A stretch of DNA of 64,000 nt, from assembly GCA_029556545.1 (NCBI GenBank), contig JAKQEQ010000085.1, positions 1-64,000 on the forward strand, in the 5' to 3' direction. Origin of the DNA: Candidatus Hydrogenedentota bacterium (GTDB taxonomy: Bacteria > Hydrogenedentota > Hydrogenedentia > Hydrogenedentales > JAGMZX01). Position 1 is the stretch's first letter. Every line of letters starts with the position of its first letter. The notes below the pieces were generated by a model. The model was not told where the DNA came from, made no database searches, and saw nothing but the letters and a program-made list of their open reading frames with translations. The translations under genes were made by a program, and so were the position numbers. Shown here in pieces: positions 17,721-63,513 of this stretch.

Positions 17721-18366
17721 GAACGTCTCCGAAAAACCGCCGGCGTAAACGTTTTCTACTTATGCCCGCAACCGCATGGACACGCTGTGCGCCCCTCGCG
17801 CGAGACCTCGCGGCGGTGAATTCAATCGCCAATGCTGACATTCTACCGAATCGCTGCGCATGCAGCCAAGGCTTGGCCCGTCCGTCAGATAATCACGTCT
17901 ACGTAGCCGCATGCAACGTGGAAATATCAAGTGTGAAGCATGAGATTGCAGTGCTTACTTCTGCGCTCGCTCCACGCCGAGCGCCTTGGTGCCCATCAAT
18001 GGAGAGTTATGCCCGACAGAATAGAGCCATCAGGGCGTATCGGTCTGGCCGCCTTGTCCTGTCTCGCATCTGCATGCCCTCGCCCGTCGTGGGTACATAT
18101 GTGTACAGGTGTGGAATCACTGCTCCGTATGTAAAGTAAATCTCACATTTTCGGTGTGTTGGCACGTTGGAAGGGCGCTGCCAGAGCGCAATCGGGCCGT
18201 TTTATTTCAACATCTAGGGGTCAAAATTCGTGCTTGCATATATGTTGTGTTCGTGTTACCATGTTGCCAATATCTATGGTGTATGTAGCGGTTCTCGGCC
18301 ATATGTTGTGGTTATTGACACAATGCCGCGACATTGGTCGGAATATGGGAGGAAGGAGACGCTTAC
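17721..18366. other. gene-free leader region upstream of the 18.4-27.1 kb operon
   Basis: This intergenic stretch of about 650 bases is visibly AT-richer than its surroundings from about 17870. It contains a GTACA-tatg-TGTAC palindrome at 18093-18106 and a TTGACA at 18315-18320 with only a weak -10 (GAATAT, 18341-18346, long spacer). A strong SD, GGAGGAAGGAG, ends seven bases before the ATG at 18367. Open frames here have no protein-like character. It probably holds the operon's control region. Confidence 0.5.
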
Positions 18367-20055
18367 ATGACCCGCAGCCTGCTTGTCTACCTGCCCGGTT
18401 ATCCCTATGCGGCGGAAACCCTTACGCCGCAACACATGCTTGCCGCGATGGCGGGGGCGCTGATGGACGCCGGGCATGAGACGCAGATTCTCGATTTCGG
18501 CGTCGTGGAAGAACTGGGCACGTTGACTTCCGGCAGGCTGGCGAACGCTTTGCTGGGTGCGTCCGCGGCGGACCTGTGGGAGGAACGCGCGGGGGTATGC
18601 TCGCGCTGGACCGCGCGGCGGCGGCGCCGGACACTTACTCGGATGATTCGCGCGGCGGAGGCGCGCCAGTGGGCGACCACTGCGGCGGAACTCGGCACGC
18701 ATACGGGTCTGGACTTCATCGTGCTGCACGTGCCCCGGCGGGAGGACGTCGCGCCCGCGTTGGCGTTGGCGTCCATCGTGCGCGCGGCATCGCCCAGCAT
18801 CCGTATCCTTGCATCCGGGCGGCACGCGGAACGGTACGCCTCCTTCGTGATCGAGGCCGCGCCGGCCATTGACGCCTGTATCGTGGGCGACGTCGAGCCG
18901 GCGATCATCGCGGTGGCGGATCACGTCCGCGCCCCGGAAACGTGGTCCGGACTGCCGAACCTGGTGATTCGCGACGGGGCGCGCGCTTTCGCGACGCCAC
19001 GAGAGGAGGTCCTGCGCCTCGATGGGCTGCCGCGGCCATCGTACCGGCGCGAGGTGTATCCCGCGCTGTATCACGGCGGCAAATTCCGGCTGTTTCCCGT
19101 GCGTGAAAGCCGGGGGAGCGATCATCTCCCACACGCGACGCCGCGTCCGCCGTTCGAAGCGTTTCAGGCGCGGGTGCGGTCGCCGCGCAAGGTGTGCGAT
19201 GAGTTGCGTGGACTTGGGCGGGACTGCGGCGCGCGGGCGTTCCACTTCCTGGGCGATGCGACCCCGGCGGCCACGTTCGACGCGCTGTGCTATGAGATAC
19301 TCGCGGAGTGTCTGCACGTGTTCTATAGCCGTTCCGCGCATGTCCACGACACGGACCCGACGACCCTGTCCACGCTGCACGCCTCGGGGTGTCGCGCCGT
19401 TTCGTTTCGGATCGATACGGGCAGCCAACGGTTACTCGAGGACTATTACGGTCATGAATTCGGCGTGACTCAGATCGAGACGGTGCTGAGCGCTTGCCGC
19501 GAGGCGAACCTTTTCACCGTGGCGGCGTTTACGTATCCGTGTCCCGAGGACGATTACCACGCGCGGGCGGAGACGCTGCGGCTGGTGCGGCGGGCGCGGC
19601 CGCACGCGGTGCGGCTGGGACTGCCCGAGGTGCTGCCCGACTCGGATTGGTGGGACTTCGCCCGCGAGTTCGGGTTCAAGATCGACGCGCGCGCCGTCGC
19701 GCGTTTGGCGACCACGGCGCCCGATCCGTTCGCGACGCCCGGCGCGGACCTCGCCTACGCAATGAAAGGGCGGTCCGCCGCGGCCGTTGGCCAAGAACAC
19801 ACCGGACTTCTCGATGATTTCCGTTTTGAGGGCTTCGCGACGGCGGTGTCGGTCCATGAGGCGCTGCTTGCGCGAGTGTGCGGGCGGCACGACGCCGAGG
19901 CGGAGTACGCCGAACGCCTGCGCGAACTTCTGTTCCTGGGCGACGCGGAGGAGCTTGCGGCGGCGGTGCGCGCGTTCAACGATCGGGCGGTGGCGCCCGC
20001 GAACACGATTCCGTTCGTGCCGTATGCCACGGTGCGCGCCGCCGTGGGGAACTGA
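18367..20055 (+). CDS. B12-binding/radical SAM-like protein lacking the cluster cysteines
   Basis: 562 residues. It is built like B12-binding radical SAM enzymes: an N-terminal Rossmann-like cobalamin-binding-type domain (about 1-190, beginning YLPGYPYAAETLTP, with GDVEPAI near 175), a linker LDGLPRPSY, then a TIM-barrel-like region. Where the family has S-R-G-C-x3-C-x2-C, this protein has S-R-G-Ser251-D-H-L-Pro255-H-A-Thr258, so no 4Fe-4S cluster can form there. The barrel-like SFRIDTGS and downstream helices persist. The reading frame is intact, so this is not simple decay. Strong SD; ends three bases before the ketosynthase gene. Role unknown: perhaps a binding or structural subunit. Confidence 0.75.
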   Translation: MTRSLLVYLPGYPYAAETLTPQHMLAAMAGALMDAGHETQILDFGVVEELGTLTSGRLANALLGASAADLWEERAGVCSRWTARRRRRTLTRMIRAAEARQWATTAAELGTHTGLDFIVLHVPRREDVAPALALASIVRAASPSIRILASGRHAERYASFVIEAAPAIDACIVGDVEPAIIAVADHVRAPETWSGLPNLVIRDGARAFATPREEVLRLDGLPRPSYRREVYPALYHGGKFRLFPVRESRGSDHLPHATPRPPFEAFQARVRSPRKVCDELRGLGRDCGARAFHFLGDATPAATFDALCYEILAECLHVFYSRSAHVHDTDPTTLSTLHASGCRAVSFRIDTGSQRLLEDYYGHEFGVTQIETVLSACREANLFTVAAFTYPCPEDDYHARAETLRLVRRARPHAVRLGLPEVLPDSDWWDFAREFGFKIDARAVARLATTAPDPFATPGADLAYAMKGRSAAAVGQEHTGLLDDFRFEGFATAVSVHEALLARVCGRHDAEAEYAERLRELLFLGDAEELAAAVRAFNDRAVAPANTIPFVPYATVRAAVGN

Positions 20056-20058
20056 GCC

Positions 20059-21303
20059 ATGACGCCGGTCCCGGTGGTGATAACGGGGCTGGGCGTGTTA
20101 GCCTGCAACGGGATCGGGCGACGCGCCTTCTGGGACGCCCTGGCCGCCGGCAAATCGGGGATACGGCCCCTGAGCCGTTTCGATGCTTCGGAGTTTCCGT
20201 GCCGGATTGCGGGGGAACTCTGGGACTTCCGCCCCGAGGATTTCATGAGCAAGCGGGTGGTGCAGCACTGGCATCGCCACGTGCATCAAGCCGTGGCCAG
20301 CGCGCGGCTCGCGGTCGAGGACGCGGGGCTGGCGGCGGCCGCGTATCCCGATGATCGCGTCGCGGTGGCTGTAGGCACGAGCATAGGATCGCCCAATGAG
20401 GCGTATCAGGAACAAGTCGAGGCGCTTCAGTCGGGCGGCTTCCGGAAGGTGAGCAAGTTCGCGTCATCCGCCTTTTCCGGGCACTCGGCCACGGCCCATG
20501 TATCGGTCGATTTTGGATTGCGCGGCCCGGCGATTACTATTGCAAGCGGTTGCGCCACCGGCCTGGACGCGCTGGCCTGGGGCGTAAATCAGATACGGCT
20601 GGGCAACGCCGACGCGGCCGTCGTCGGCGCGACCGAGTCGCCGTTGTTCCCGATGTCCTTCGCGACGCAATGTTCGCTGGGTATTCTCTCGCGGCGTAAC
20701 GACGAACCCGAGAAGGCGATGCGCCCCTTCGACCGGGGCCGGGACGGCATTGTGCTGAGCGAGGGCGCATGCACCGTGGTGCTCGAACGGCTGGACCACG
20801 CGCGATCGCGCGGCGCGCGCATTCTCGCCGAAGCGGCGGGCAACGGGTCCGCGGCGGAAGCGCGTAATCCGCTGTTGCTCGAACAGGACGGCAAGGCGCT
20901 GTCGCGCGCGGCGCGCATCGCGATGCGCGAGGCGGGAGTCGCCCCCGGGGATATCGACCACATCCAGTGTCATGGCGTATCCATCGAGATGTATGATCGG
21001 TGCGAGACGAACGCGTACAAGGAGATTCTCGGCGACCGCGCGTACCGGGTCCCGATCTCGGCGGCGAAATCGATGGTGGGACAGGCGTATGCCGTGGGCG
21101 GGTTGTTTGGCGTGGCTGGCGCGCTGCTGGCGCTTGTCGAGGATATCGTGCCGCCGACGCGCAATCTGGACGACCCGGACCCGCGGTGCGACCTGGATTA
21201 CGTGCCTCACCAGGCGCGGCTGAACGACGTGCGCACGGCGCTGGTGGCGGCCATCAGCTTCGGCGGCACGCACAGCGCGGCCGTATTACGGCGATGTAAC
21301 TGA
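20059..21303 (+). CDS. FabF-like beta-ketoacyl synthase with Cys-His-Gln active site
   Basis: 414 residues of the thiolase-fold KAS I/II family. The nucleophile Cys165 lies in IASGCATGLD, the first His is His305 in QCHGVS, and the conserved Lys337 is in AAKSM. The second catalytic His, expected at KSMxGH, is Gln342 (KSMVGQ). Numbering runs two ahead of E. coli FabF (163/303/335/340), so the alignment is firm. Cys suggests acyl loading is retained; loss of the second His may impair decarboxylative condensation. No acyl carrier protein, reductase or dehydratase is adjacent. It is coupled to the upstream radical-SAM-like gene and to the downstream kinase (TGATG junction). Confidence 0.88.
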   Translation: MTPVPVVITGLGVLACNGIGRRAFWDALAAGKSGIRPLSRFDASEFPCRIAGELWDFRPEDFMSKRVVQHWHRHVHQAVASARLAVEDAGLAAAAYPDDRVAVAVGTSIGSPNEAYQEQVEALQSGGFRKVSKFASSAFSGHSATAHVSVDFGLRGPAITIASGCATGLDALAWGVNQIRLGNADAAVVGATESPLFPMSFATQCSLGILSRRNDEPEKAMRPFDRGRDGIVLSEGACTVVLERLDHARSRGARILAEAAGNGSAAEARNPLLLEQDGKALSRAARIAMREAGVAPGDIDHIQCHGVSIEMYDRCETNAYKEILGDRAYRVPISAAKSMVGQAYAVGGLFGVAGALLALVEDIVPPTRNLDDPDPRCDLDYVPHQARLNDVRTALVAAISFGGTHSAAVLRRCN

Positions 21304-23822
21304 TGTTTCCACTGGACCAGACGGCATCGGCGAGCGTGCTGCTGGGTCTCTCGGCGGTATCGAGCTTGGCCCTCGGCGGGGTGGTGCTGTATCGCAACCC
21401 GGCCAAGCTCGCCCACCGCGTATTCGCCCTCCTGACCGTAAACATCGCGCTGTGGGCGCTGGGCGTGCTCACCATCATCCATTCGCATACGCCGGAAACG
21501 GCCCGGTTTCTTATTCAGGTCACGTTTATCGTCGCGGGATTCCTGCCGGCCACCTTCTATCACTTCTGCGGGTGTTTCCCGAACAATCGCTTCTACGGTT
21601 CCCGGATCGCGCTCGTGGTGCTTTACGCCGGCGCGGCGCTCATGGCCATTATTTCGCAGACGCCGTCGTACATCCGCGATCTGCTCGTGTTTCCAGACCA
21701 GCCGCCGCGCGTCACCTACGGTCCGGCGTTTAACGCCTATGGACTGCTGGTACTGGCTTCGATGGTCGTTTCTTTCGGTAACCTGCTTGTGAAACACCGC
21801 ACGGCGGCGGGGGTGCAACGCCGCCAGCTCCAACATGTTTTCCTCGGCATTTTCGCCTCGACCGTACTGGCCACCTTGACGAACGTCCTCGCGCCCGTCA
21901 TGAACATCGGGTCGCTCGAATTGTACGGGCCGTGTTTTATGGTGCTCCTGATGGCCGTGCTCGCGTACAGCATGGTCCGCTATCAGTTGCTCGACATCTG
22001 GGTCATCGTCTCGCGCAGCACCATCTATGCGGTGCTCACCGCCACCGTGGTCGCCATCTTCCTGGGCTCCGTGGCCATCGTCCATTGGCTGGTCAGCGCC
22101 ACGGGCCACGCACGCGACGTGCTGACCACGGCGCTGGCCGCGATGCTCATCGCACTTGTGATTCAGCCGTTGAAGGAGCGGCTGCAACTGGTGCTGGACC
22201 GTCTCATCCTGAAGCGGCGCTATGACGCCCGGTTGATGACCGAGCGGATCAGCCGCGAAGCGGCGCAATTCATGCATCTTCACGCCTTGCTCGAGCGGGT
22301 CTGCCAGGATATCCTCCATACCCTCGGCGTGGGACTGAGCAGGGTGTTGTTGGTGTGCGAGAAACAGCGCGACACCCTGATCACCGAGTACTCGACGCGC
22401 CCGGAGGAAATCGGCAGGGAAACCATCGACCTCGATATCCTGCTCGAATATGTGGCGAAGCACCCGGAGCCGATCGCGCTCGAGGAACTGCTGCACAGCC
22501 GCCCCACCGAGGAGCGCATACGCGTAGCGGAGCAATTGGCGGAACTGGACGCCTTTCTGTGCGTGCCGCTCAAGACGAAGTCAGGAATTGTCGGACTGCT
22601 GCTTCTGGGCGAGAAAACATCCCGCGACATCTACACCGCCGAGGACGTCACGATGTTCTCGACACTGGCCGGGCCGCTGGGCGCGGCAATCGAGAACGCG
22701 CGACTCTATCGCAAGATCGAAGAGGTGAACCTGCACCTCGAGCGCATCATGGACAACATGCGCGGCGGCGTGATCGCCGTGGACGTCAACGGCGTGATCA
22801 CGACGGTAAACCAGGGCGCGCGCGACATCCTGGGCAAGATCAACGTCGGAGACCGCATGGACGGCCTGCGACCGCCCCTGGCGGACCTGCTGCGACGCAC
22901 CCTCGCCGAGCAACGCTCGATCAGCGACTTCGAGACCGTCATCGCTGGTCCGGACGGTGAGCGCATCCCCGTGCTGCTATCCGCGTCGTTACTGGCCCGC
23001 AGCGAGTGGGAAAGCCTCGGTGCGATGGCGTTGCTCTTCAATCTGACGCAGATCAAGCGGCTCGAGGCGAATGTGCAGCGCGCGGACCGTCTTTCGTCGC
23101 TGGGCACGGTGGCGGCGGGCATGGCGCATGAGATCAAGAACCCGCTCGTATCGATTCGGACCTTTACCCAACTGCTGCCGACCCGGTATCAGGACCCGGA
23201 GTTCCGGGCGAGTTTCTCGGAGATCGTGCTTCAGGAGGTGGACCGGATCAACACGATCGTCTCGCGGCTGCTCGACTTTGCCCGCCCGAGACCGGTCCAG
23301 TTCGCGCCGCAGAACCTGCACCGCATTCTTAGCGACACGCTGGCGCTCATCGAAAGCCAGACCCGCAAGTCCAACATCAAAGTCAACGCGGTCTTTCCGG
23401 AAAAGGATCGCGAGGTCAGCGGCGATGAGCAGCAGTTGCACCAGGTGTTTCTGAACCTCCTGCTCAATGCGATCGAAGCGCTCCAAGAAAGCCGCGAGCG
23501 CCAGATCACCGTCACCATGCGGTATGATCGGGCGCATCTGCGGCGCAAAGACGCGCCCCCGCTCTTTGACGCGGAATGTGTTAAGGTGTCGATTGCGGAT
23601 ACGGGATGCGGTATCCCGCAGGACGCGCTGGACCAGGTGTTTACTCCGTTTTTCACGACTAAGGCCAACGGCAGCGGGCTCGGATTGTCCGTCGTGCAGG
23701 GCATCGTCACGAGTCATGGCGGCGTGATTGATGTGTCGAGCATTCCGGGCATGGGCACGCTGTTCACCGTCACTTTCCCGCTCATGACCGCCGGACGACC
23801 GGCCCAGAGGCAGACACAATGA
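21303..23822 (+). CDS. membrane sensor histidine kinase (7TM-type, GAF, PAS, HisKA, HATPase)
   Basis: 839 residues. About eight membrane segments lie in residues 10-300, then a GAF domain (about 320-470), a PAS domain (about 475-590), HisKA with the phospho-acceptor His609 in MAHEIKNPL, and HATPase_c with N box (LLNAIEA), G1 (DTGCGIP) and G2 (GSGLGL). It autophosphorylates and should pass phosphate to the NtrC-type regulator encoded two genes on. The ATG shares one base with the ketosynthase stop, so translation is coupled. The cue is unknown; a membrane lipid or ketosynthase product is only a guess from context. Confidence 0.92.
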   Translation: MFPLDQTASASVLLGLSAVSSLALGGVVLYRNPAKLAHRVFALLTVNIALWALGVLTIIHSHTPETARFLIQVTFIVAGFLPATFYHFCGCFPNNRFYGSRIALVVLYAGAALMAIISQTPSYIRDLLVFPDQPPRVTYGPAFNAYGLLVLASMVVSFGNLLVKHRTAAGVQRRQLQHVFLGIFASTVLATLTNVLAPVMNIGSLELYGPCFMVLLMAVLAYSMVRYQLLDIWVIVSRSTIYAVLTATVVAIFLGSVAIVHWLVSATGHARDVLTTALAAMLIALVIQPLKERLQLVLDRLILKRRYDARLMTERISREAAQFMHLHALLERVCQDILHTLGVGLSRVLLVCEKQRDTLITEYSTRPEEIGRETIDLDILLEYVAKHPEPIALEELLHSRPTEERIRVAEQLAELDAFLCVPLKTKSGIVGLLLLGEKTSRDIYTAEDVTMFSTLAGPLGAAIENARLYRKIEEVNLHLERIMDNMRGGVIAVDVNGVITTVNQGARDILGKINVGDRMDGLRPPLADLLRRTLAEQRSISDFETVIAGPDGERIPVLLSASLLARSEWESLGAMALLFNLTQIKRLEANVQRADRLSSLGTVAAGMAHEIKNPLVSIRTFTQLLPTRYQDPEFRASFSEIVLQEVDRINTIVSRLLDFARPRPVQFAPQNLHRILSDTLALIESQTRKSNIKVNAVFPEKDREVSGDEQQLHQVFLNLLLNAIEALQESRERQITVTMRYDRAHLRRKDAPPLFDAECVKVSIADTGCGIPQDALDQVFTPFFTTKANGSGLGLSVVQGIVTSHGGVIDVSSIPGMGTLFTVTFPLMTAGRPAQRQTQ

Positions 23823-25768
23823 GGGTAATTCTCGTCATAGCCCAGGACCGGGCCGTGCGCGAGTCCATACGCGCCGCCTGGCCCGAGGGGGACCTGCTGC
23901 TCTTCGAGGACCGCATCGATGCGGCCGGACGCCGCCTGGTGTCGCTGCAAGCCGACGCCATCGTGCTCGACGACGCGCCGGGTCTCGGCATGGAAGCCCT
24001 TGCGCCCATCAAGGCGCTCGCGCCCGGCACGCCCGTCATCGTGATTGCATCACGCGGCGACCTGGTCACGCAGGCCGCGTTTACCCGCGGCGGCGCGGAC
24101 GCCAGCGTGGCGAAGCCGTTCTCCTGCGAGACGCTGCGCGCGGAAGTAGACCGGCTGACGATGCCCGTACCGACGCAGGACGTCGCGCCCGCGCCCGCGG
24201 CGCCCGGCGGAACCGGGGGCGGCCTGCTGCTTCAACAACACCAGATGGCCTTACGTTGGCTGAGCCGGGCTTCGAGTCACAGCGAGGACCCTTGCCGCCT
24301 CAGCCAAGCGCTTATCGAGGCGACGGTGGATATCTTCGGCGCGGCGCGCAGCGCGGTTCTCCTGGAGGAGGAAGGCCTGGTGCGCGTGGCTGCCAGTCAG
24401 GGGTTGCCCGAGAACGTGGCGCAGCCGCTTCGGTTGAGTTTCTCGACAGGACTCATGCGGTGGTTTGACGCACACGCGTGTCTTATAGACCGCCGCGCCG
24501 TCGAGGATCCGAGCGCGCAGGCGGACCCGCACGCGGCGGCCGCGGCGAAGGAGATGCGCCTGCTCCACGCGGTGCTCGGGGCGCCGCTGCTTCGCGTGGG
24601 CCAGGTGTTCGGCGCCGTGTTGCTGGGTGAGCGCGTGGCGGGCGGGGCCTATACCCTCGAGGAACGGGAAATCCTGGCCCTCGTGTGCCGCTGTGTCTCG
24701 CTCGCCTTCGAACGCGCCCACGTCCACGCGGAAACGGCGCGGGGCCAGGCGCGGCTGGACCGCATACTGGCCCACATCAACGCCGGCGTGGTTACGGTGG
24801 GCTCGAACAAGATCATTGTGATGATGAACCGGAGCGCCGAGCAGTTGCTTAACGTGCGCGCTATCGACATGGTCGGGCGTAGCGTGCAGCGGCTGGGCTC
24901 CGCGTTCGCCGACCTTGCCCTGCGCACGCTGGCCGACGGCGCGCCGCGCCTGCGTCAGGAATTTCATGACCCCGCGATCAACGCGACACTCGGCCTTAGC
25001 GCGACGCCGCTGGGCGACGAGGGTGTCGTTATCGTATTTGCCCGTCTTCCGGCGCGGGACGGGAACCGGGAGGATCTCGCGCTCAGCCCGGTGTGGGGGT
25101 ATCTGGCCTCGCGCGTCGCGCAGGAAATCAAGAATCCGATGGTAGCCATTAGTACCTATGCGCAGTTGCTCCCCAAGAAATATGACGCACCGGACTTCCG
25201 TGACTCCTTCTCGGAGGTTGTCCAGAAGGAAGTTGCCCGCATCAACGCGGTGGTCGAGACGCTGTATGCGTTCGCGGAAACGCCGCGCCTCGCGCTCGAA
25301 GCCGCCGACGTGGACGAGGCCGTGCGCGCCGTGCTCGATTCCATGCGCGATGAGATGCGCGAGCACGCGATCACGGTGGACGCCGAGTTCCAGGCGGGCG
25401 GCGCGCTGGCGGAGATTGATCGGAGCCGCTTCGCGACGGCGCTGGCGCACGTCGTGCGCAACGCCATCGACGCCATGGCGCACGGCGGCACACTTTCGGT
25501 GCGCACGAGCCGCGAGAACGGGTGCGTCGAAGTGCGCGTCACGGACACCGGCCCCGGTATCCCGGAAGAGGATGCGGCCAACATCTTCCTGCCGTTCTTC
25601 AGCACGCGCGAGAGGGGTATGGGACTGGGGCTCGCCATCGCGGGACGCATCCTGAAACAACACCAAGGCGAACTGAGGCTGCTGCACAGCGAGCACGGCG
25701 GGAGCTGCTTCGCCCTCGAACTCCCGGCGTCGGAAAAGACTCATGCAAACCATACTCGCGGTGGATGA
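23819..25768 (+). CDS. hybrid sensor kinase with the phospho-acceptor His replaced by Gln
   Basis: 649 residues, apparently soluble. The N-terminus is a receiver-like domain (phospho-acceptor candidate Asp51, Lys in AKPFS, but only a partial acidic pair), then GAF (about 145-300), PAS (about 310-415), a HisKA-like helix pair and an intact HATPase_c (RNAIDAM, DTGPGIP, GMGLGLAIAG). The H box reads VAQEIKNPM: Gln435 occupies the His position, so trans-autophosphorylation there is impossible. It closely parallels the preceding kinase through this region (TYAQLLPKKYDAPDFRDSF versus TFTQLLPTRYQDPEFRASF), which marks it as a diverged paralogue. It overlaps the upstream kinase (ATGA) and the downstream regulator (26 bases). 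Confidence 0.87.
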   Translation: MRVILVIAQDRAVRESIRAAWPEGDLLLFEDRIDAAGRRLVSLQADAIVLDDAPGLGMEALAPIKALAPGTPVIVIASRGDLVTQAAFTRGGADASVAKPFSCETLRAEVDRLTMPVPTQDVAPAPAAPGGTGGGLLLQQHQMALRWLSRASSHSEDPCRLSQALIEATVDIFGAARSAVLLEEEGLVRVAASQGLPENVAQPLRLSFSTGLMRWFDAHACLIDRRAVEDPSAQADPHAAAAAKEMRLLHAVLGAPLLRVGQVFGAVLLGERVAGGAYTLEEREILALVCRCVSLAFERAHVHAETARGQARLDRILAHINAGVVTVGSNKIIVMMNRSAEQLLNVRAIDMVGRSVQRLGSAFADLALRTLADGAPRLRQEFHDPAINATLGLSATPLGDEGVVIVFARLPARDGNREDLALSPVWGYLASRVAQEIKNPMVAISTYAQLLPKKYDAPDFRDSFSEVVQKEVARINAVVETLYAFAETPRLALEAADVDEAVRAVLDSMRDEMREHAITVDAEFQAGGALAEIDRSRFATALAHVVRNAIDAMAHGGTLSVRTSRENGCVEVRVTDTGPGIPEEDAANIFLPFFSTRERGMGLGLAIAGRILKQHQGELRLLHSEHGGSCFALELPASEKTHANHTRGG

Positions 25769-27128
25769 CGAATTCAGCGTCCGCAAGTCCTACGAACTGG
25801 TTCTCGGCGATGCCTACCGGCTCCTGCTGGCGGAAGACGTCGCGAAAGCGTTCGCCGTGCTTGAACAACAGCACGTCGATCTCATCCTGCTCGACCTGAT
25901 CCTGCCCGGCATGACGGGGCTCGAATTTCTTGCTCAACTGCAGGAACGGGGCGAATTGACGCCGGTCATCGTGGTAACCGGTTCGAACACCGTGCAGACG
26001 GCGGTCGAAGTGATGAAGCGCGGCGCGCGCGATTTTGTCGTCAAGCCGTTTGACGTGGAGGATTTGCTCCGGCTGGTCGATCGTGTGCTGCGCGAGCGGC
26101 GTGAGCAACTGGAGCTTTATGCGCTCCGGGAGCGCGACGCCGCGGGCTTCGAGCAGATCATCGGCGACGCGCCCGCCCTGCGCGAGGCGTTGGCCAAGGC
26201 GCGTCAGGCCATGCAGGTGGACTCCACGGTGTTGATCACCGGAGAGAGCGGCACGGGCAAGGACCTGCTCGCGCGCGCCATTCATTGCGGCGGCAGGCGC
26301 GCCGCGGGCCCCTTTGTGCCCATATCCTGCTGCGCGATCCCCGAGCAACTGGTCGAGAGTGAACTGTTCGGCCACATGAAGGGCGCGTTCACCGGCGCGA
26401 CCGAAACGCGCGTCGGCAAACTCGAAGTGGCGGACGGCGGCACCTTGTTCCTCGATGAGATCGGCGAAATGCCGCTCGACGCCCAAGCCAAGCTGCTGCG
26501 CGTGCTCCAGGACGGCGCCTTCTATCCGGTCGGCGCGACCAAGACGATCCACGTGGACTTGCGCGTTGTCTGCGCCACCAATCGCGACCTGTGGCGGACC
26601 GTGCGCGAGGGCGGGTTCCGGGAAGACCTTTTCTATCGCGTGAACGTGCTGCCCATCGAGATGCCGCCGCTGCGCAAGCGGCGCGAGGACATCCCCCGGC
26701 TTGTCGCGCATTTCGTCGCGAAGCACGCGCCTCACGTGAACGCGCGTTGCGAGAGCGTGGCGCCGAAGGCGCTGGCGCATCTGGCGGCGTACGGGTGGCC
26801 GGGGAACGTGCGCGAGCTGGAGAACACGATCGAGCGTCTGCTCGTGATGCACAGCGCCGAACCGGTATTGCAGGCCGAGCATCTCGAGGGCATATTGCCG
26901 GGCACCGGCCGCGAGGCCGCGCGCGGGGTTGATGAATTCGAGGGGCTCCCGCTCACGGAGGCGACTGACCGCCTCGAGCGACATTTGATACTGCGCGCGC
27001 TGGATCGAGCGGATTACGTGCAGTCGCAGGCCGCCGAACTCTTGGGCACGACGCGCCGCATTCTCAAGTATAAGATGGATCATTTGGGCATAACGCCTCC
27101 CGGCGAACCGGACGACGAAGCCGGGTAA
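25743..27128 (+). CDS. NtrC-family sigma-54-dependent response regulator
   Basis: 461 residues. The receiver domain has phospho-acceptor Asp51 (LLDLILPGM) and Lys101 (VVKPFD). The AAA+ domain has Walker A GESGTGKD (167-174), the sigma-54-contacting GAFTGA loop (214-219), FLDEIGEM and the sensor Arg block. A C-terminal Fis-type HTH ends [13 protein letters not shown]. It activates transcription from sigma-54 promoters when phosphorylated, presumably by the His609 kinase two genes upstream. It overlaps the pseudo-kinase gene by 26 bases. Its target promoters were not located. Confidence 0.94.
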
Positions 27129-27189: not shown

Positions 27190-28089
27190 GTGAGCATTAC
27201 GGTAGTGGGATCGGTGGCGCTGGATACGGTGGAAACCCCGTGGGGAAGGAACGAGGACGGCTTGGGCGGCGCGGCGGTCTATTTTGCCTTGGCGGCGGCG
27301 AACTTCACGCCTGTGCACATGGTGGGCGTTGTGGGCGACGATTTCCCGGATCGGCACATGCAATTGCTGGCTGCGAAGGGCATCGATCTCACGGGACTCG
27401 AACACGCCTCGGGTGCGACGTTCCGCTGGTCGGGCCGCTACCACGAGGACGTGAACATTCGCGACACCCTCGATACGCAATTGAATGTGTTCGAACAGTT
27501 CCATCCCAGCATTCCCGAGACCGCCCGGACCGCCGAGCTTCTTTTTCTTGGAAACATCCATCCGGCACTTCAGGCGGAGGTGCTTGCACAGACGCGGCCT
27601 CGCTTCGTCGCGATGGATACGATGAATCTCTGGATCGCAACCACGCCGGATGCGCTGCGCGCCGTGCTGCGGGAGGTGGACGCCATTGTCATTAACGACG
27701 GCGAAGCCCGGCAGTTGACCGGAGAGGCCAACGTGGTGGCGGCCGCGCGGCAGGTGCAGGCGCTCGGGCCGAGGATCGTCGTTGTGAAGAAGGGCGAACA
27801 CGGCGCTATGCTCTTCACCGAGGCCGACGCGGTCTTCGCCATACCCGCGCTGCCGCTGAAGACAGTGGTGGATCCGACGGGCGCGGGCGACAGCTTCGCG
27901 GGCGGATTCCTGGGCTGTGTCGCGCAATCGGGCGATACGTCCTCCGCCACACTGCGGCGCGCGGTGGCCTACGGCACGGTGGTCGCGTCGTTTACCTGCG
28001 AAGCATTCGGGCCGGCCCGGCTCGCCGAGATTGGGCCGGCGGACATCGAGGCGCGCGCGGCCCTGCTTCGGCGGCTCTCGGAATTCTGA
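27190..28089 (+). CDS. PfkB-family carbohydrate/nucleoside kinase
   Basis: 299 residues. The GTG start at 27190 has AAGGAG about nine bases upstream. N-terminal GGAAVYFALAAA and C-terminal VVDPTGAGDSFAGGFLGC (anion hole and catalytic Asp) define the ribokinase fold. It phosphorylates a sugar or nucleoside with ATP; the substrate is not readable. It lies 61 bases after the response-regulator gene on the same strand and may be read from the same operon. Confidence 0.9.
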   Translation: MSITVVGSVALDTVETPWGRNEDGLGGAAVYFALAAANFTPVHMVGVVGDDFPDRHMQLLAAKGIDLTGLEHASGATFRWSGRYHEDVNIRDTLDTQLNVFEQFHPSIPETARTAELLFLGNIHPALQAEVLAQTRPRFVAMDTMNLWIATTPDALRAVLREVDAIVINDGEARQLTGEANVVAAARQVQALGPRIVVVKKGEHGAMLFTEADAVFAIPALPLKTVVDPTGAGDSFAGGFLGCVAQSGDTSSATLRRAVAYGTVVASFTCEAFGPARLAEIGPADIEARAALLRRLSEF

Positions 28090-43552: not shown

Positions 43553-44776
43553 CTATTGATCGCGGCTGCCCAGGGCGAACTCGCGCAATTCCTCGACGAA
43601 CCCGCTGCGCAGCGGATGCACCAACCCCTCGATATAGCGCGAGGTCGTGTAATTCTGCATCCAGGCGCAATCGCCCCCGCACTGCCGATCACCGTTCCCA
43701 TGAAAGCCGTCCGGGTTGATTTGGGCGCGCCCGGCTGCGTAGGCCTCGTCGAACGTCCGGTAATCCAGCAGATTGATGTCCACCGGCGGCACGTGTACGG
43801 ACGCGCGACACGGCCAGCAGATCGCGCCGTTCGACCAGACATGCGGTTTGAGCGCGGTCAGGCACGCGTGCGGTTCCGCAAATAGTAGTCGGCGCAGCAG
43901 GGTTTCCGATCCGATGATCTTGCAGCCTTCCCGCTTGCGCGCGAGGATGAGCGCGGCGAAATCCCGGTAGTCCGCGCATTCGAGTAGCGCGGCCTCGGGC
44001 CGATGCTTGAAATTCACCGGCACCGGCACGAACCATAGGTCGAGATCGCATGCAAGATCGAACACGGCGCGCGCCTCCCCGATGGTCTCGGGTGTAATCA
44101 CGGTGTTCACCGCAAGTTTGAACGTCACGTCGCGACGGAGTTCGCGCAACAGCAACAGATTCACGAGGACCTGCCGCGCCGCGTCGACGCCCCAGAGCCG
44201 CGCGAGGGTGGAGGCGTCAAGCGCGTCCAGGCTCACGATCACGACGTCCATCTGCACGAGGAACTTCCGCCACGCCGGGTCCCGCAGGCGACGATGAACC
44301 AGGCTGCCGTTGGTGTTGATCATGTTGGGAAAATACCCGAGATTCCAGGCGTAATCGAGCAAGTCCGGCAGATCGTTTCGCAACATCGGCTCGCCGCCGC
44401 ACCAATAGAGGGCGGGCGTGCCGGTGATCATGACATCCAGCAGGCGTTTCCCCTGTTCCGTGTTCAGACGGTCTGAATCGGCGATGTCGTAGTAGTGCCG
44501 GCCCTGGTGATTGTCGCAATAGGCGCAGCGGAAATTGCAGCTATTGCACATGGTCCAGATTGCGTACAAGGGCCGCAGCGCGTGGTTGCCCGTCTTGTAG
44601 CGCCTTCGGTTGATCAGGTAATTTGCCGCCGTCTTGCACAGCGCCCGGAACTTGCGCCGCCGGTCCCGCAGGCGGTCCTGGAAGGTCAGGTCTTCATCCT
44701 TGAGAAGCCGCGGCCGGACCTCGTCCGCAAGACGGCGGGCGTCCGCCAGGCATTCCTTGATGTCCGGGTGTCCCAT
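43553..44776 (-). CDS. radical SAM protein with SPASM-like C-terminal cysteines
   Basis: 407 residues from the ATG at 44776; the longer open frame has no coding character. The radical SAM cluster motif is CNFRCAYC (Cys-x3-Cys-x2-Cys, about residues 81-88), followed by WCGGEPML. The C-terminal third holds further cysteines (ICWPCRAS; RQCGGDCAW) typical of SPASM/twitch auxiliary cluster domains. It may modify a peptide or act as a sactionine/quinone-type maturase; no precursor peptide gene was found nearby. It is the first gene of a pair with the unknown membrane protein. Confidence 0.87.
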   Translation of the reverse strand: MGHPDIKECLADARRLADEVRPRLLKDEDLTFQDRLRDRRRKFRALCKTAANYLINRRRYKTGNHALRPLYAIWTMCNSCNFRCAYCDNHQGRHYYDIADSDRLNTEQGKRLLDVMITGTPALYWCGGEPMLRNDLPDLLDYAWNLGYFPNMINTNGSLVHRRLRDPAWRKFLVQMDVVIVSLDALDASTLARLWGVDAARQVLVNLLLLRELRRDVTFKLAVNTVITPETIGEARAVFDLACDLDLWFVPVPVNFKHRPEAALLECADYRDFAALILARKREGCKIIGSETLLRRLLFAEPHACLTALKPHVWSNGAICWPCRASVHVPPVDINLLDYRTFDEAYAAGRAQINPDGFHGNGDRQCGGDCAWMQNYTTSRYIEGLVHPLRSGFVEELREFALGSRDQ

Positions 44777-60524: not shown

Positions 60525-61664
60525 CTACGCTCGGGCAATGAGTACGGGCTCGGCCTCCGGCGCGCCGTCGTGGCCGCGCGCACGCAAGATCGGGCCGTCG
60601 AAAGGATTGTCGGCATCATCGAATCGGCGCAGGCGCTCGTATGTCGTCGTGCGCTGCACCGGCGTGAAGCCCGCGTCGCGGATGGCGGTCAACACCGCAT
60701 CGAGCGTGGTCGCCACGTTATGGTCGGCCTGCCGCAGCACGTTTTCCTCGAGCAGCAGCCCGCCGAAATCGTCGGCGCCTGCGTGGAGCGCCAATTGCCC
60801 CGCGCGCCACCCCTCGCCGAACCACGACGCCTGGATGTGCGGGAAGTTGTCGAGCACAAGCCGCGCGACGGCGATCACGCGCACGTAGAGGCTCGGCAGT
60901 TCCTCCTCCGCCACGAGGCGGCTCAACGGCGAACGGCCCGGCTTCAAACTCCACGGAATAAAGGCGTAGAAGCCGCCGGTCTCGTCCTGCAGCCGACGCA
61001 GACGCAGGAGATGGTCGATAATGTCCTCGGGCGACTCGCGATGTCCGTAGGTCATAGTGGCGCTGGTCTTCATGCCGATGCGGTGCGCCGCGCGCATGAT
61101 ATCGATCCAATCGTCGCTCGAAATCTTCTTCGGCGAGACCCCGCGCCGCACGTCGTCCACCAGAATTTCCGCGCCGCCGCCGGGCATGGTTCGCATGCCC
61201 GCGTCCCAGAACGCGCCCAACACCGCTTCCCGGGTCCTGCCGCAGGTCTCGGCGATGTGGGCGATCTCGGGCGGCGAGAATAGGTGCAGGTGGATATCAG
61301 GCGCGGCGGCGCGGATGGCGGCGATCAAGTCGAAGTAATAGTGAAAAGGCAACGCGGGATTGTGGCCGCCCTGAAGCAGTACGGTCGTCGCGCCGAGCGC
61401 GTGCGCGCGCGCCACCTTCGCCGCCACCTGTTCAGGCGTCAACGTATAGGCTTCCGGATGGCCGGGCTTGCGGTAGAAGCTGCAAAACGTGCATTCGGTC
61501 ACGCACACGTTTGTATAGTTCGGGTTCGTGTCGATGACGAAGGTAACGTCATCGCCGGGATGCCGCGCGCGGCGCACGGCGTCGGCCTGCTCCATCAAGG
61601 CCAGTTGCGGCGCATCGAGCAGCAAGTACAGGGCTTCGCGAAAACCTATGCGCTCTTGACCCAC
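60525..61664 (-). CDS. mqnC: cyclic dehypoxanthinyl futalosine synthase MqnC
   Basis: 379 residues. Radical SAM motif CVTECTFCSF (Cys-x3-Cys-x2-Cys, about 62-69), GGHNPALPF and MPGGGAEIL mark the MqnC/MqnE/CofH group. It cyclises dehypoxanthine futalosine. Its start overlaps the 3' end of mqnA by 19 bases. Confidence 0.94.
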   Translation of the reverse strand: MGQERIGFREALYLLLDAPQLALMEQADAVRRARHPGDDVTFVIDTNPNYTNVCVTECTFCSFYRKPGHPEAYTLTPEQVAAKVARAHALGATTVLLQGGHNPALPFHYYFDLIAAIRAAAPDIHLHLFSPPEIAHIAETCGRTREAVLGAFWDAGMRTMPGGGAEILVDDVRRGVSPKKISSDDWIDIMRAAHRIGMKTSATMTYGHRESPEDIIDHLLRLRRLQDETGGFYAFIPWSLKPGRSPLSRLVAEEELPSLYVRVIAVARLVLDNFPHIQASWFGEGWRAGQLALHAGADDFGGLLLEENVLRQADHNVATTLDAVLTAIRDAGFTPVQRTTTYERLRRFDDADNPFDGPILRARGHDGAPEAEPVLIARA

Positions 61665-62442: not shown

Positions 62443-63513
62443 TTACGTCGCCGCGAGCGCCGGCGATGCATTCGCAACCGGGTCGAAGACTCCGTCGCGC
62501 TCGACCGGCGTCTGGCCGGCCTGGCGAATCATGCGGTCCATCAAACGCGCGGACATTGCGGCGGGCGCGGCGGTCCCCGCGTATTGCATGATCCGCTCGT
62601 GACCGAGCGTGCCGTCGAGATCGTCGGCGCCGAAGGTCAAAGCGGCCGCGGCGGTCTCGACGCCGAGGGTGGGCGTATAGGCTTTGACATGCGGCACGTT
62701 ATCGAGAACGAGCCGCGCCAGCGCGACGATGCGCAGGCAGCGCGGCGCGCCCGGCGGCCGCGGCGCGAGTCGGGTAGTACCAGGTAAATAAGCGAGTGGA
62801 ATAAAGCTCTGGAAGCCCGGCGCACGGTCTTCGAGTTCGCGAAGCCGCAGCAGGTGGTCCACAATCTCCTCATCCGTCTCGATATGGCCGAAGAGCAGTG
62901 TGGCGTTGCTCGGGAGCCCCAGGCAGTGCGCCTTTTCGTGTATCTCGATCCACTCGTCAGGCCCGATCTTGTCCGGGTAAAGCGCCCGATGCACGCGCGC
63001 GCTCAGCACCTCCGCCCCGCCGCCAGGCATCATGTCCACGCCCGCGTCGATCATCTCGCGCAGCACGGACTCGGCATCGGTCTGTTCCATGCGCGCGAAG
63101 TAGGCGACCTCGACGGCGGTGAACGCCTTGATGTGCAGGTCGGGCCGGGCCGCGCGGATGCGCCGCACCAGCGCTGTCGAGCGATCGAAGCCCCACTTGG
63201 GCCAGAGGCCGCCGACGATGTGCGCCTCGCGGATACTCGGGTCCGCGAGTCCGGCGAGGATTTCGTCGTCCGTCAGGGAATAGGCGTGGTCGTCGCCGCG
63301 TTTTGCGGCAAAATCGCAGAATGCGCATGCGTAGACGCACAGGTTCGTGGGATTAACGTGCCGGTTGCGCACATAAGTGACCCGGTCACCGCACAGGGCC
63401 CGCTTGCGGTCGAAGGCGCGGCGGCCCAGTTCGAGCAGAGGTGCGTTGCGCAGGGCGTCCAGCGAGGCGCCGCGATCGAGTCTATAAGCCGATGGCTCGG
63501 TCTCCGAAGACAT
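62443..63513 (-). CDS. mqnE: aminodeoxyfutalosine synthase MqnE
   Basis: 356 residues from the ATG at 63513, with GGAG eight bases upstream; the longer frame to 63930 lacks coding character. Radical SAM motif CVYACAFCDF, VGGLWPKWGFD and MPGGGAEVL. It joins 3-enolpyruvylbenzoate and SAM to make aminodeoxyfutalosine. First gene of mqnE-A-C-D. The futalosine hydrolase gene mqnB is not in the window. Confidence 0.94.
   Translation of the reverse strand: MSSETEPSAYRLDRGASLDALRNAPLLELGRRAFDRKRALCGDRVTYVRNRHVNPTNLCVYACAFCDFAAKRGDDHAYSLTDDEILAGLADPSIREAHIVGGLWPKWGFDRSTALVRRIRAARPDLHIKAFTAVEVAYFARMEQTDAESVLREMIDAGVDMMPGGGAEVLSARVHRALYPDKIGPDEWIEIHEKAHCLGLPSNATLLFGHIETDEEIVDHLLRLRELEDRAPGFQSFIPLAYLPGTTRLAPRPPGAPRCLRIVALARLVLDNVPHVKAYTPTLGVETAAAALTFGADDLDGTLGHERIMQYAGTAAPAAMSARLMDRMIRQAGQTPVERDGVFDPVANASPALAAT

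Follow-up and report, generated by a model that had tools for sequence, protein, structure and literature searches.

The synthases CqsA and LqsA are PLP-dependent acyltransferases, and the pseudo-kinase DivL carries a Tyr at the phospho-acceptor position. In the CqsA/CqsS and LqsA/LqsS systems the synthase is encoded with a multi-TM histidine kinase (PMC3285556, PMC3376566). In DivL, a kinase core has been converted to sensing a response regulator (PMC4211667); this His-less core, described with CckA, retains a conserved DHp domain and acts on an active kinase (PMC4211667, PMC5361649). PrsK/PrsR and AtoS/AtoC each combine a kinase that has an N-terminal TM region with an NtrC-type regulator. 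Two further points of comparison are the proposed ladderane clusters of anammox bacteria, which contain pairs of B12 radical SAM and FabF genes (PMC2649909), and NrdR, which has a characteristic arrangement of paired boxes about three helical turns apart (PMC12051234).

Here we describe an operon in a 64-kb stretch of DNA (the whole of the sequence analyzed, hereafter the window) from a 6.1 Mb Candidatus Hydrogenedentota genome. It is real, conserved and apparently undescribed, consisting of known parts in a new combination; no description of the A–E operon was found in the literature searched. It may be likened to CqsA/CqsS and LqsA/LqsS, with a ketosynthase (KS) as the synthase-side partner rather than a PLP-dependent acyltransferase. 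The genes are as follows.

Gene A, 18367..20055, plus strand, predicted cobalamin-binding radical SAM fold without the [4Fe-4S] Cys triad
Gene B, 20059..21303, plus strand, FabF-like KS with a Cys165-His305-Gln342 triad and an SFGGT gating loop
Gene C, 21303..23822, plus strand, membrane histidine kinase, 7TM-GAF-PAS-HisKA(His609)-HATPase
Gene D, 23819..25768, plus strand, soluble REC-GAF-PAS pseudo-histidine kinase, His replaced by Gln435, REC Asp51 and ATP-binding boxes kept
Gene E, 25743..27128, plus strand, NtrC-type sigma-54-dependent response regulator with REC Asp51, GAFTGA and a Fis-type HTH
Gene F, 27190..28089, plus strand, PfkB-family sugar kinase, usually, though not always, the sixth gene

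Gene order and distribution of the operon

Genes A to E occupy positions 18367–27128 with gaps of +3, −1, −4 and −26 bp, as a first-pass annotation of this DNA had listed them, and the catalytic-residue replacements that it read in A, B and D were all confirmed in the residues of the window. Pfam assigned B to the ketosynthases, C to HisKA_7TM-GAF-PAS-HisKA-HATPase and E to REC-sigma54-Fis, and matched D weakly as REC-GAF-PAS-HisKA-HATPase. A KS orthologue with the same Cys-His-Gln (C-H-Q) triad was present in 38 of 68 sampled Hydrogenedentota genomes, where only matches far stronger than those of ordinary FabF (near 1e-92) were counted, and a search of order-level genomes recovered the KS orthologue at 54–85% identity in 33 of them (own genome included). 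Named records of operon orthologues were overwhelmingly from the same phylum. A contig labeled Nitrospiraceae bacterium OTbin.67 (L066/L035) also bears a Hydrogenedentota-type operon, and its public label is probably wrong.

The order A-B-C-D-E was kept in every Hydrogenedentota locus long enough to hold it, with near-identical junction overlaps (−23 or −26 for D/E in most), and the arrangement is therefore not a product of chance. The earlier proposal of a fixed multi-gene unit is borne out by this conserved order in Hydrogenedentota, and the genes recur in a different order in Planctomycetota. Among the sampled genomes of the phylum, the complete set was missing from families f6 and f10. A PfkB kinase directly followed E in 15 of the 23 loci with room for one. 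Between the source genome and its sister, dN/dS (NG86) was 0.10–0.16 across all five genes (0.16 for A and 0.10–0.12 for the others). Followed into orthologues, the three substitutions fared differently: the His-to-Gln changes in the KS and in D were invariant, which rules out local decay of these two copies, but Cys loss in the radical SAM protein was not fixed.

A ketosynthase clade with an altered triad

B has Cys165, His305 and Lys337, with Gln342 (KSMVGQ) in place of the second catalytic His. The Cys-His-Gln combination occurred in 33 of 33 Hydrogenedentota rows and in all Planctomycetota rows, and Cys165, His305 and Lys337 were likewise invariant in rows with letters at these positions (n = 33 for Gln342). 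Like FabF (TIGR03150, PF00109/PF02801), B has the full-length fold, the catalytic Cys, the first His and the Lys; unlike FabF, with its Cys-His-His triad, every member of the B clade has Gln for the second His and an SFGGT/SVGGT gate instead of GFGG. B also scores 368 bits against an equivalog cut-off of 493.75 bits (TIGR03150) and adjoins a sensor kinase gene. Given that the second His of KS enzymes has an established role in malonyl decarboxylation (PMC2649909), we infer that B is acylated but does not elongate. The first-pass annotation had the degenerate enzymes bind, rather than make, a lipid or acyl ligand. This was not supported: the nucleophile Cys, first His and Lys are retained, and over its full length the KS is better conserved than the other four proteins (63% mean pairwise identity).

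Related operons in Planctomycetota and Verrucomicrobia

In a quick tree, C-H-Q KS sequences of Hydrogenedentota and Planctomycetota formed one clade (SH-aLRT 99). Among Planctomycetota, including the anammox genera Brocadia and Jettenia, the gene for the C-H-Q KS (44–47% identity) lies after a radical SAM gene and before a 7TM kinase gene, the product of which has ~29% identity to C. The order there is D'-E-A'-B-C, in which A' has an intact C-x4-C-x2-C and D' is a REC-GAF-PAS protein with no kinase core at all; an E-like regulator lies inside the operon in Brocadia (L087 and L090–L092). The proposed unit of KS, kinase, D-type protein and sigma-54 regulator was accordingly seen in two phyla, with E in part of Brocadia. 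Brocadia sp. AMX1 has two extra KS genes between E and A' (L087:4203-6784); the triad positions are Ala/Ser/Phe in one of them, and the other has a canonical C-H-H triad.

A sister KS clade in Verrucomicrobia has Cys or Ser at the nucleophile position, keeps both His, and is encoded directly before a 7TM kinase, with a REC-GAF kinase next in the loci where this was read. Ser replaces the catalytic Cys in three verrucomicrobial FabF-like proteins (L100, L105 and L106); in L105 and L106, a 7TM kinase gene comes directly after it, then one for a REC-GAF kinase whose His is intact, and L106 has a FadL porin downstream. FadL-type outer-membrane transporters were found beside homologous operons in L084, L088 and L106, and by sequence reading in L090.

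These neighborhoods bear on an explanation in which A and B form a pathway to an unusual lipid or polyketide, with C-D-E only controlling that pathway or its precursors according to membrane state. The FadL neighbors, the canonical and further altered KS genes of Brocadia sp. AMX1, and the B12 radical SAM and FabF pairs of proposed ladderane clusters (PMC2649909) all speak for such a biosynthetic role. Those clusters resemble the operon in placing a B12 radical SAM gene beside active-site-altered FabF paralogues in anammox Planctomycetota, but the altered Kuenenia FabFs listed for them have lost the Cys and first His, with Glu or Asn at the second-His position rather than C-H-Q, and the text on the clusters mentions no kinase, unlike the operon with its C and D (PMC2649909). 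Against the ladderane-type B12/radical SAM model TIGR04072 (cut-off 360 bits), A scores 30.4 bits and Planctomycetota A' 45–47 bits. With no recurring acyl carrier protein, ketoreductase, dehydratase or acyltransferase gene beside Hydrogenedentota operons, and radical SAM activity dispensable in most lineages, we consider this explanation unlikely.

Recurrent loss of the radical SAM cysteines in A

At the positions expected for CxxxCxxC, A has Ser251, Pro255 and Thr258 (SRG-S-DHL-P-HA-T). Pfam returned no match for A, which lacks the CxxxCxxC of radical SAM proteins (PF04055), and NCBIfam cobalamin radical SAM models matched it weakly. An AlphaFold2 model (pLDDT 90.4) had TsrM, AprD4 and MgmA as its top Foldseek matches (best structure 6wte, E 3.7e-18), and a profile match was obtained to 9ccb (E 4.8e-12). 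The model has a Rossmann-type N domain and a SAM barrel, a predicted fold in common with the cobalamin-dependent radical SAM enzymes TsrM, AprD4, MgmA, TokK and CysS, from which A here and most of its orthologues differ in missing the cluster Cys. The second half of the core, including TGSQRLL and YPCPxDDYHTRAETLRL, reached 45% mean pairwise identity versus ~25% elsewhere in A; these motifs are a signature within the A family. The fold modeled for A is a complete B12-radical-SAM one, and the gene is under purifying selection. Three other matches to radical SAM lie on the minus strand of the window (44054-44551, 61005-61520 and 62848-63357).

The CxxxCxxC motif was present in seven Hydrogenedentota orthologues (L025, L026, L035, L037, L038, L039 and L068) and absent from the others. 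These Cys-keeping lineages fell in four places on a tree of B+C+D+E, requiring at least five state changes. Because they are scattered, and a Cys triad, once gone, is unlikely to return, A appears to have lost its triad repeatedly. Cys loss had been taken as part of a fixed design, an idea that fails on the three Cys kept in the seven orthologues and in all Planctomycetota homologues read; the same retention makes it very likely that the radical SAM enzyme was functional in the ancestral unit and that this function has disappeared several times since. A recent origin of A as a pseudogene is ruled out by the widespread and recurrent nature of the loss and the dN/dS reported above.

The C-terminal AVGN of A (20041-20055 here, and compared over the A ends of L021–L052) is conserved as a peptide with varying codons and lies in a predicted disordered tail. 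It is disfavored as a by-product of a ribosome-binding site given this codon variation and its retention where the KS starts >100 bp downstream. Stand-alone A homologues occur in two family f10 genomes without KS or kinases (L160:4024-5541 and L161:3920-5413), divergent from a gene that reads as RNase H and with the same box pair in front (see below). The L160 copy, for which these features were read, lacks both the cluster Cys and AVGN. Since A persists alone in these genomes, at least part of its role is independent of KS and kinases.

In a reading that follows the first-pass annotation, the KS and degenerate A are non-catalytic receptors that, on binding a lipid or acyl-ACP, pass a signal by contact to the kinase pair. 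A protein that stays folded without its cluster, ending in a conserved and possibly docking AVGN tail, would suit such a receptor, as would the clade-wide loss of the second KS His and the loss of the D His everywhere. However, the KS nucleophile Cys, His and Lys are all kept, and the radical SAM site is intact in the seven orthologues and in Planctomycetota, so that the ancestral unit was not non-catalytic; we regard this reading, too, as rather unlikely.

A kinase and pseudo-kinase with equally conserved DHp domains

The HisKA His of C (His609, AHEIKNP) was kept in 27 of 27 rows, while D had Gln (Gln435, AQEIKNP) in all 25 of its rows, as the earlier reading of the window copy had it. D lacks the phospho-acceptor His of an active histidine kinase and retains its ATP-binding boxes and the REC Asp and Lys. 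Mean pairwise identity of the DHp was 78% in D versus 80% in C, compared with 42–53% for the other domains of the two proteins (44–50% for those of D). The DHp domains of C and D are 47% identical and have a common face, EIKNPxVxIxTFxQLL, around the His/Gln. Such close conservation without a phospho-acceptor suggests that the DHp of D may have a binding role, and the Planctomycetota D', without any kinase core, fits a non-catalytic core in D. No co-variation signal was found between the C and D DHp domains (identity 0.466 within genomes versus 0.473 across genomes).

DivL offers the closest published mechanism to D, by resemblance of mechanism rather than membership, with D differing in its Gln in place of Tyr, its REC-GAF-PAS front end and its sigma-54 regulator output. 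C and E resemble PrsK/PrsR and AtoS/AtoC in layout, but fall below all four NCBIfam equivalog cut-offs for these systems (for example, 117 versus 300 bits for PrsK, TIGR02916, and 368 versus 502.6 bits for PrsR, TIGR02915).

E has the GAFTGA motif, Walker A/B and HTH of a sigma-54 activator, with an intact phospho-acceptor Asp51. A search for sigma-54 promoters near co-occurring genes, as the annotation had suggested, did not link the operon to target genes, and none could be assigned to E: strict sites in its own genome barely exceeded the reversed control (8 versus 6), sigma-54-type sites also occurred in genomes without the operon (L195 and L196), and rpoN is near-universal. With the consensus used, no sigma-54 promoter was found upstream of A. 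Strict −24/−12 sites in the same genome precede two type IV pilin-like genes and one PII-like gene (L191, L193 and L190).

NrdR-box-like arrays upstream of the operon

Upstream of A, the window contains the following features.

Four direct NrdR-box-like repeats, 18208..18308, plus strand, 30, 30 and 31 bp apart
First box core, 18208-18217, plus strand, CAACATCTAG
Second box core, 18238-18247, plus strand, ATATATGTTG
Third box core, 18268-18277, plus strand, CAATATCTAT
Fourth box core, 18299-18308, plus strand, CCATATGTTG
Putative sigma-70-like promoter TTGCAT-N17-TACCAT, 18234..18262, plus strand, read from sequence only, overlapping the second repeat

A similar TTGCAT-N17-TAnnAT precedes A in most orthologues, and the repeats upstream of A are close to CWATATNTWG. 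Over 27 promoters, box spacing peaked at 30–32 bp and again at 60–62 bp, and chains of at least three boxes occurred in 11 of 27 promoters versus 0.15% of shuffled sequences. NrdR is encoded in 39 of 40 genomes, with matching boxes before nrdR itself in most genomes looked at. The operon is a putative member of an NrdR regulon, given boxes paired at a distance of about three helical turns and the presence of nrdR.

Across 40 genomes, ~42 strict box pairs were detected versus 3 for a reversed-pattern control. They lie before genes reading as mraZ, ftsK, thyX, recF, fliF, fliR and type II secretion or type IV pilus (T2SS/T4P-type) genes, names that come from reading translations rather than from a family search. 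It is possible that these genes form a replication-division-motility regulon, which would reflect either a broad NrdR regulon in Hydrogenedentota or another factor with the same site. NrdR-box-like pairs in this phylum were seen at L143 (G000:C134 around 15617), L126, L130, L131, L137–L141 and L150–L152. Class I/II ribonucleotide reductase was rejected as the main box target, with PF02867 in only 4 of 40 genomes and NRDD-type matches in most genomes.

The shared boxes raise the prospect that KS, kinase pair, regulator and PfkB are joined solely by a replication-linked promoter and are uncoupled in function. The same boxes before nrdR, ftsK, thyX, mraZ, recF, fliF and fliR would agree with this, as would the separability of A and PfkB from the rest. 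Nevertheless, KS, histidine kinase and D-type protein occur together in Planctomycetota without a box promoter and in another order, and families f6 and f10 lack the whole set, making co-transcription alone highly improbable. No box arrays were found upstream of Planctomycetota or Verrucomicrobia operons.

A putative acyl- or lipid-signal module

The reading we favor, tentatively and at somewhat less than even odds, is that the operon is an acyl- or lipid-signal module in which C senses the acyl state of the KS and D tunes the kinase and E. The C-H-Q KS always adjoins a 7TM-GAF-PAS kinase C and a REC-GAF-PAS D, the His-less kinase core of D being found in Hydrogenedentota, and E in Hydrogenedentota and part of Brocadia. 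Also in favor of this reading are the single C-H-Q clade over two phyla, the strong conservation of the KS and of the D DHp, the FadL-type neighbors of homologous operons, and the related verrucomicrobial KS genes placed directly before 7TM and REC-GAF kinases. B would load an acyl group on Cys165 and, without the second His and hence normal malonyl-decarboxylating elongation, make or present an acyl product that A may originally have modified. C would sense this product via the membrane or its GAF domain (a step suggested by the conserved pairing alone) and phosphorylate E. D would take no phosphate on its DHp, which may instead bind C or E and so set the balance of kinase and phosphatase activity, as the pseudo-kinase DivL does. 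In Hydrogenedentota, the level of the operon would additionally be set by a factor binding the box arrays, probably NrdR, and such control would make it responsive to nucleotide or replication status. A would have lost its radical chemistry in many lineages but persisted as a folded component that presumably binds a ligand or a protein.

Counted against the acyl-signal reading are the lack of an acyl carrier protein gene in the operon, the absence of FadL neighbors from the 18367–27128 operon, the partial independence of A, the lack of within-genome co-variation between the C and D DHp domains, and (for its NrdR component) the absence of box arrays in Planctomycetota. It is just as possible that the KS is conserved as an ordinary enzyme sharing a transcript with regulators. 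More broadly, and quite doubtfully, there may be a family of KS-based synthase/receptor two-component systems in Hydrogenedentota and anammox Planctomycetota, with a sister clade in Verrucomicrobia, in which a 7TM kinase receives an acyl signal from an altered KS and a DHp-preserving pseudo-kinase sets the response, the Hydrogenedentota unit being under NrdR and so linking lipid-type signaling to the dNTP pool.

The operon points to an undescribed way of sensing a lipid-like signal. If true, synthase-sensor signaling would extend to ketosynthases, and a C-H-Q clade of biosynthetic enzymes would have been fixed in a signaling operon over deep time. The lineages of A are natural replicates in which an enzyme lost its cofactor but the protein persisted, and the box arrays offer a testable link between nucleotide sensing through NrdR and a lipid-type signaling operon. 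For anammox bacteria, the related operons would place a defined candidate for a sensor system beside genes of fatty-acid type.
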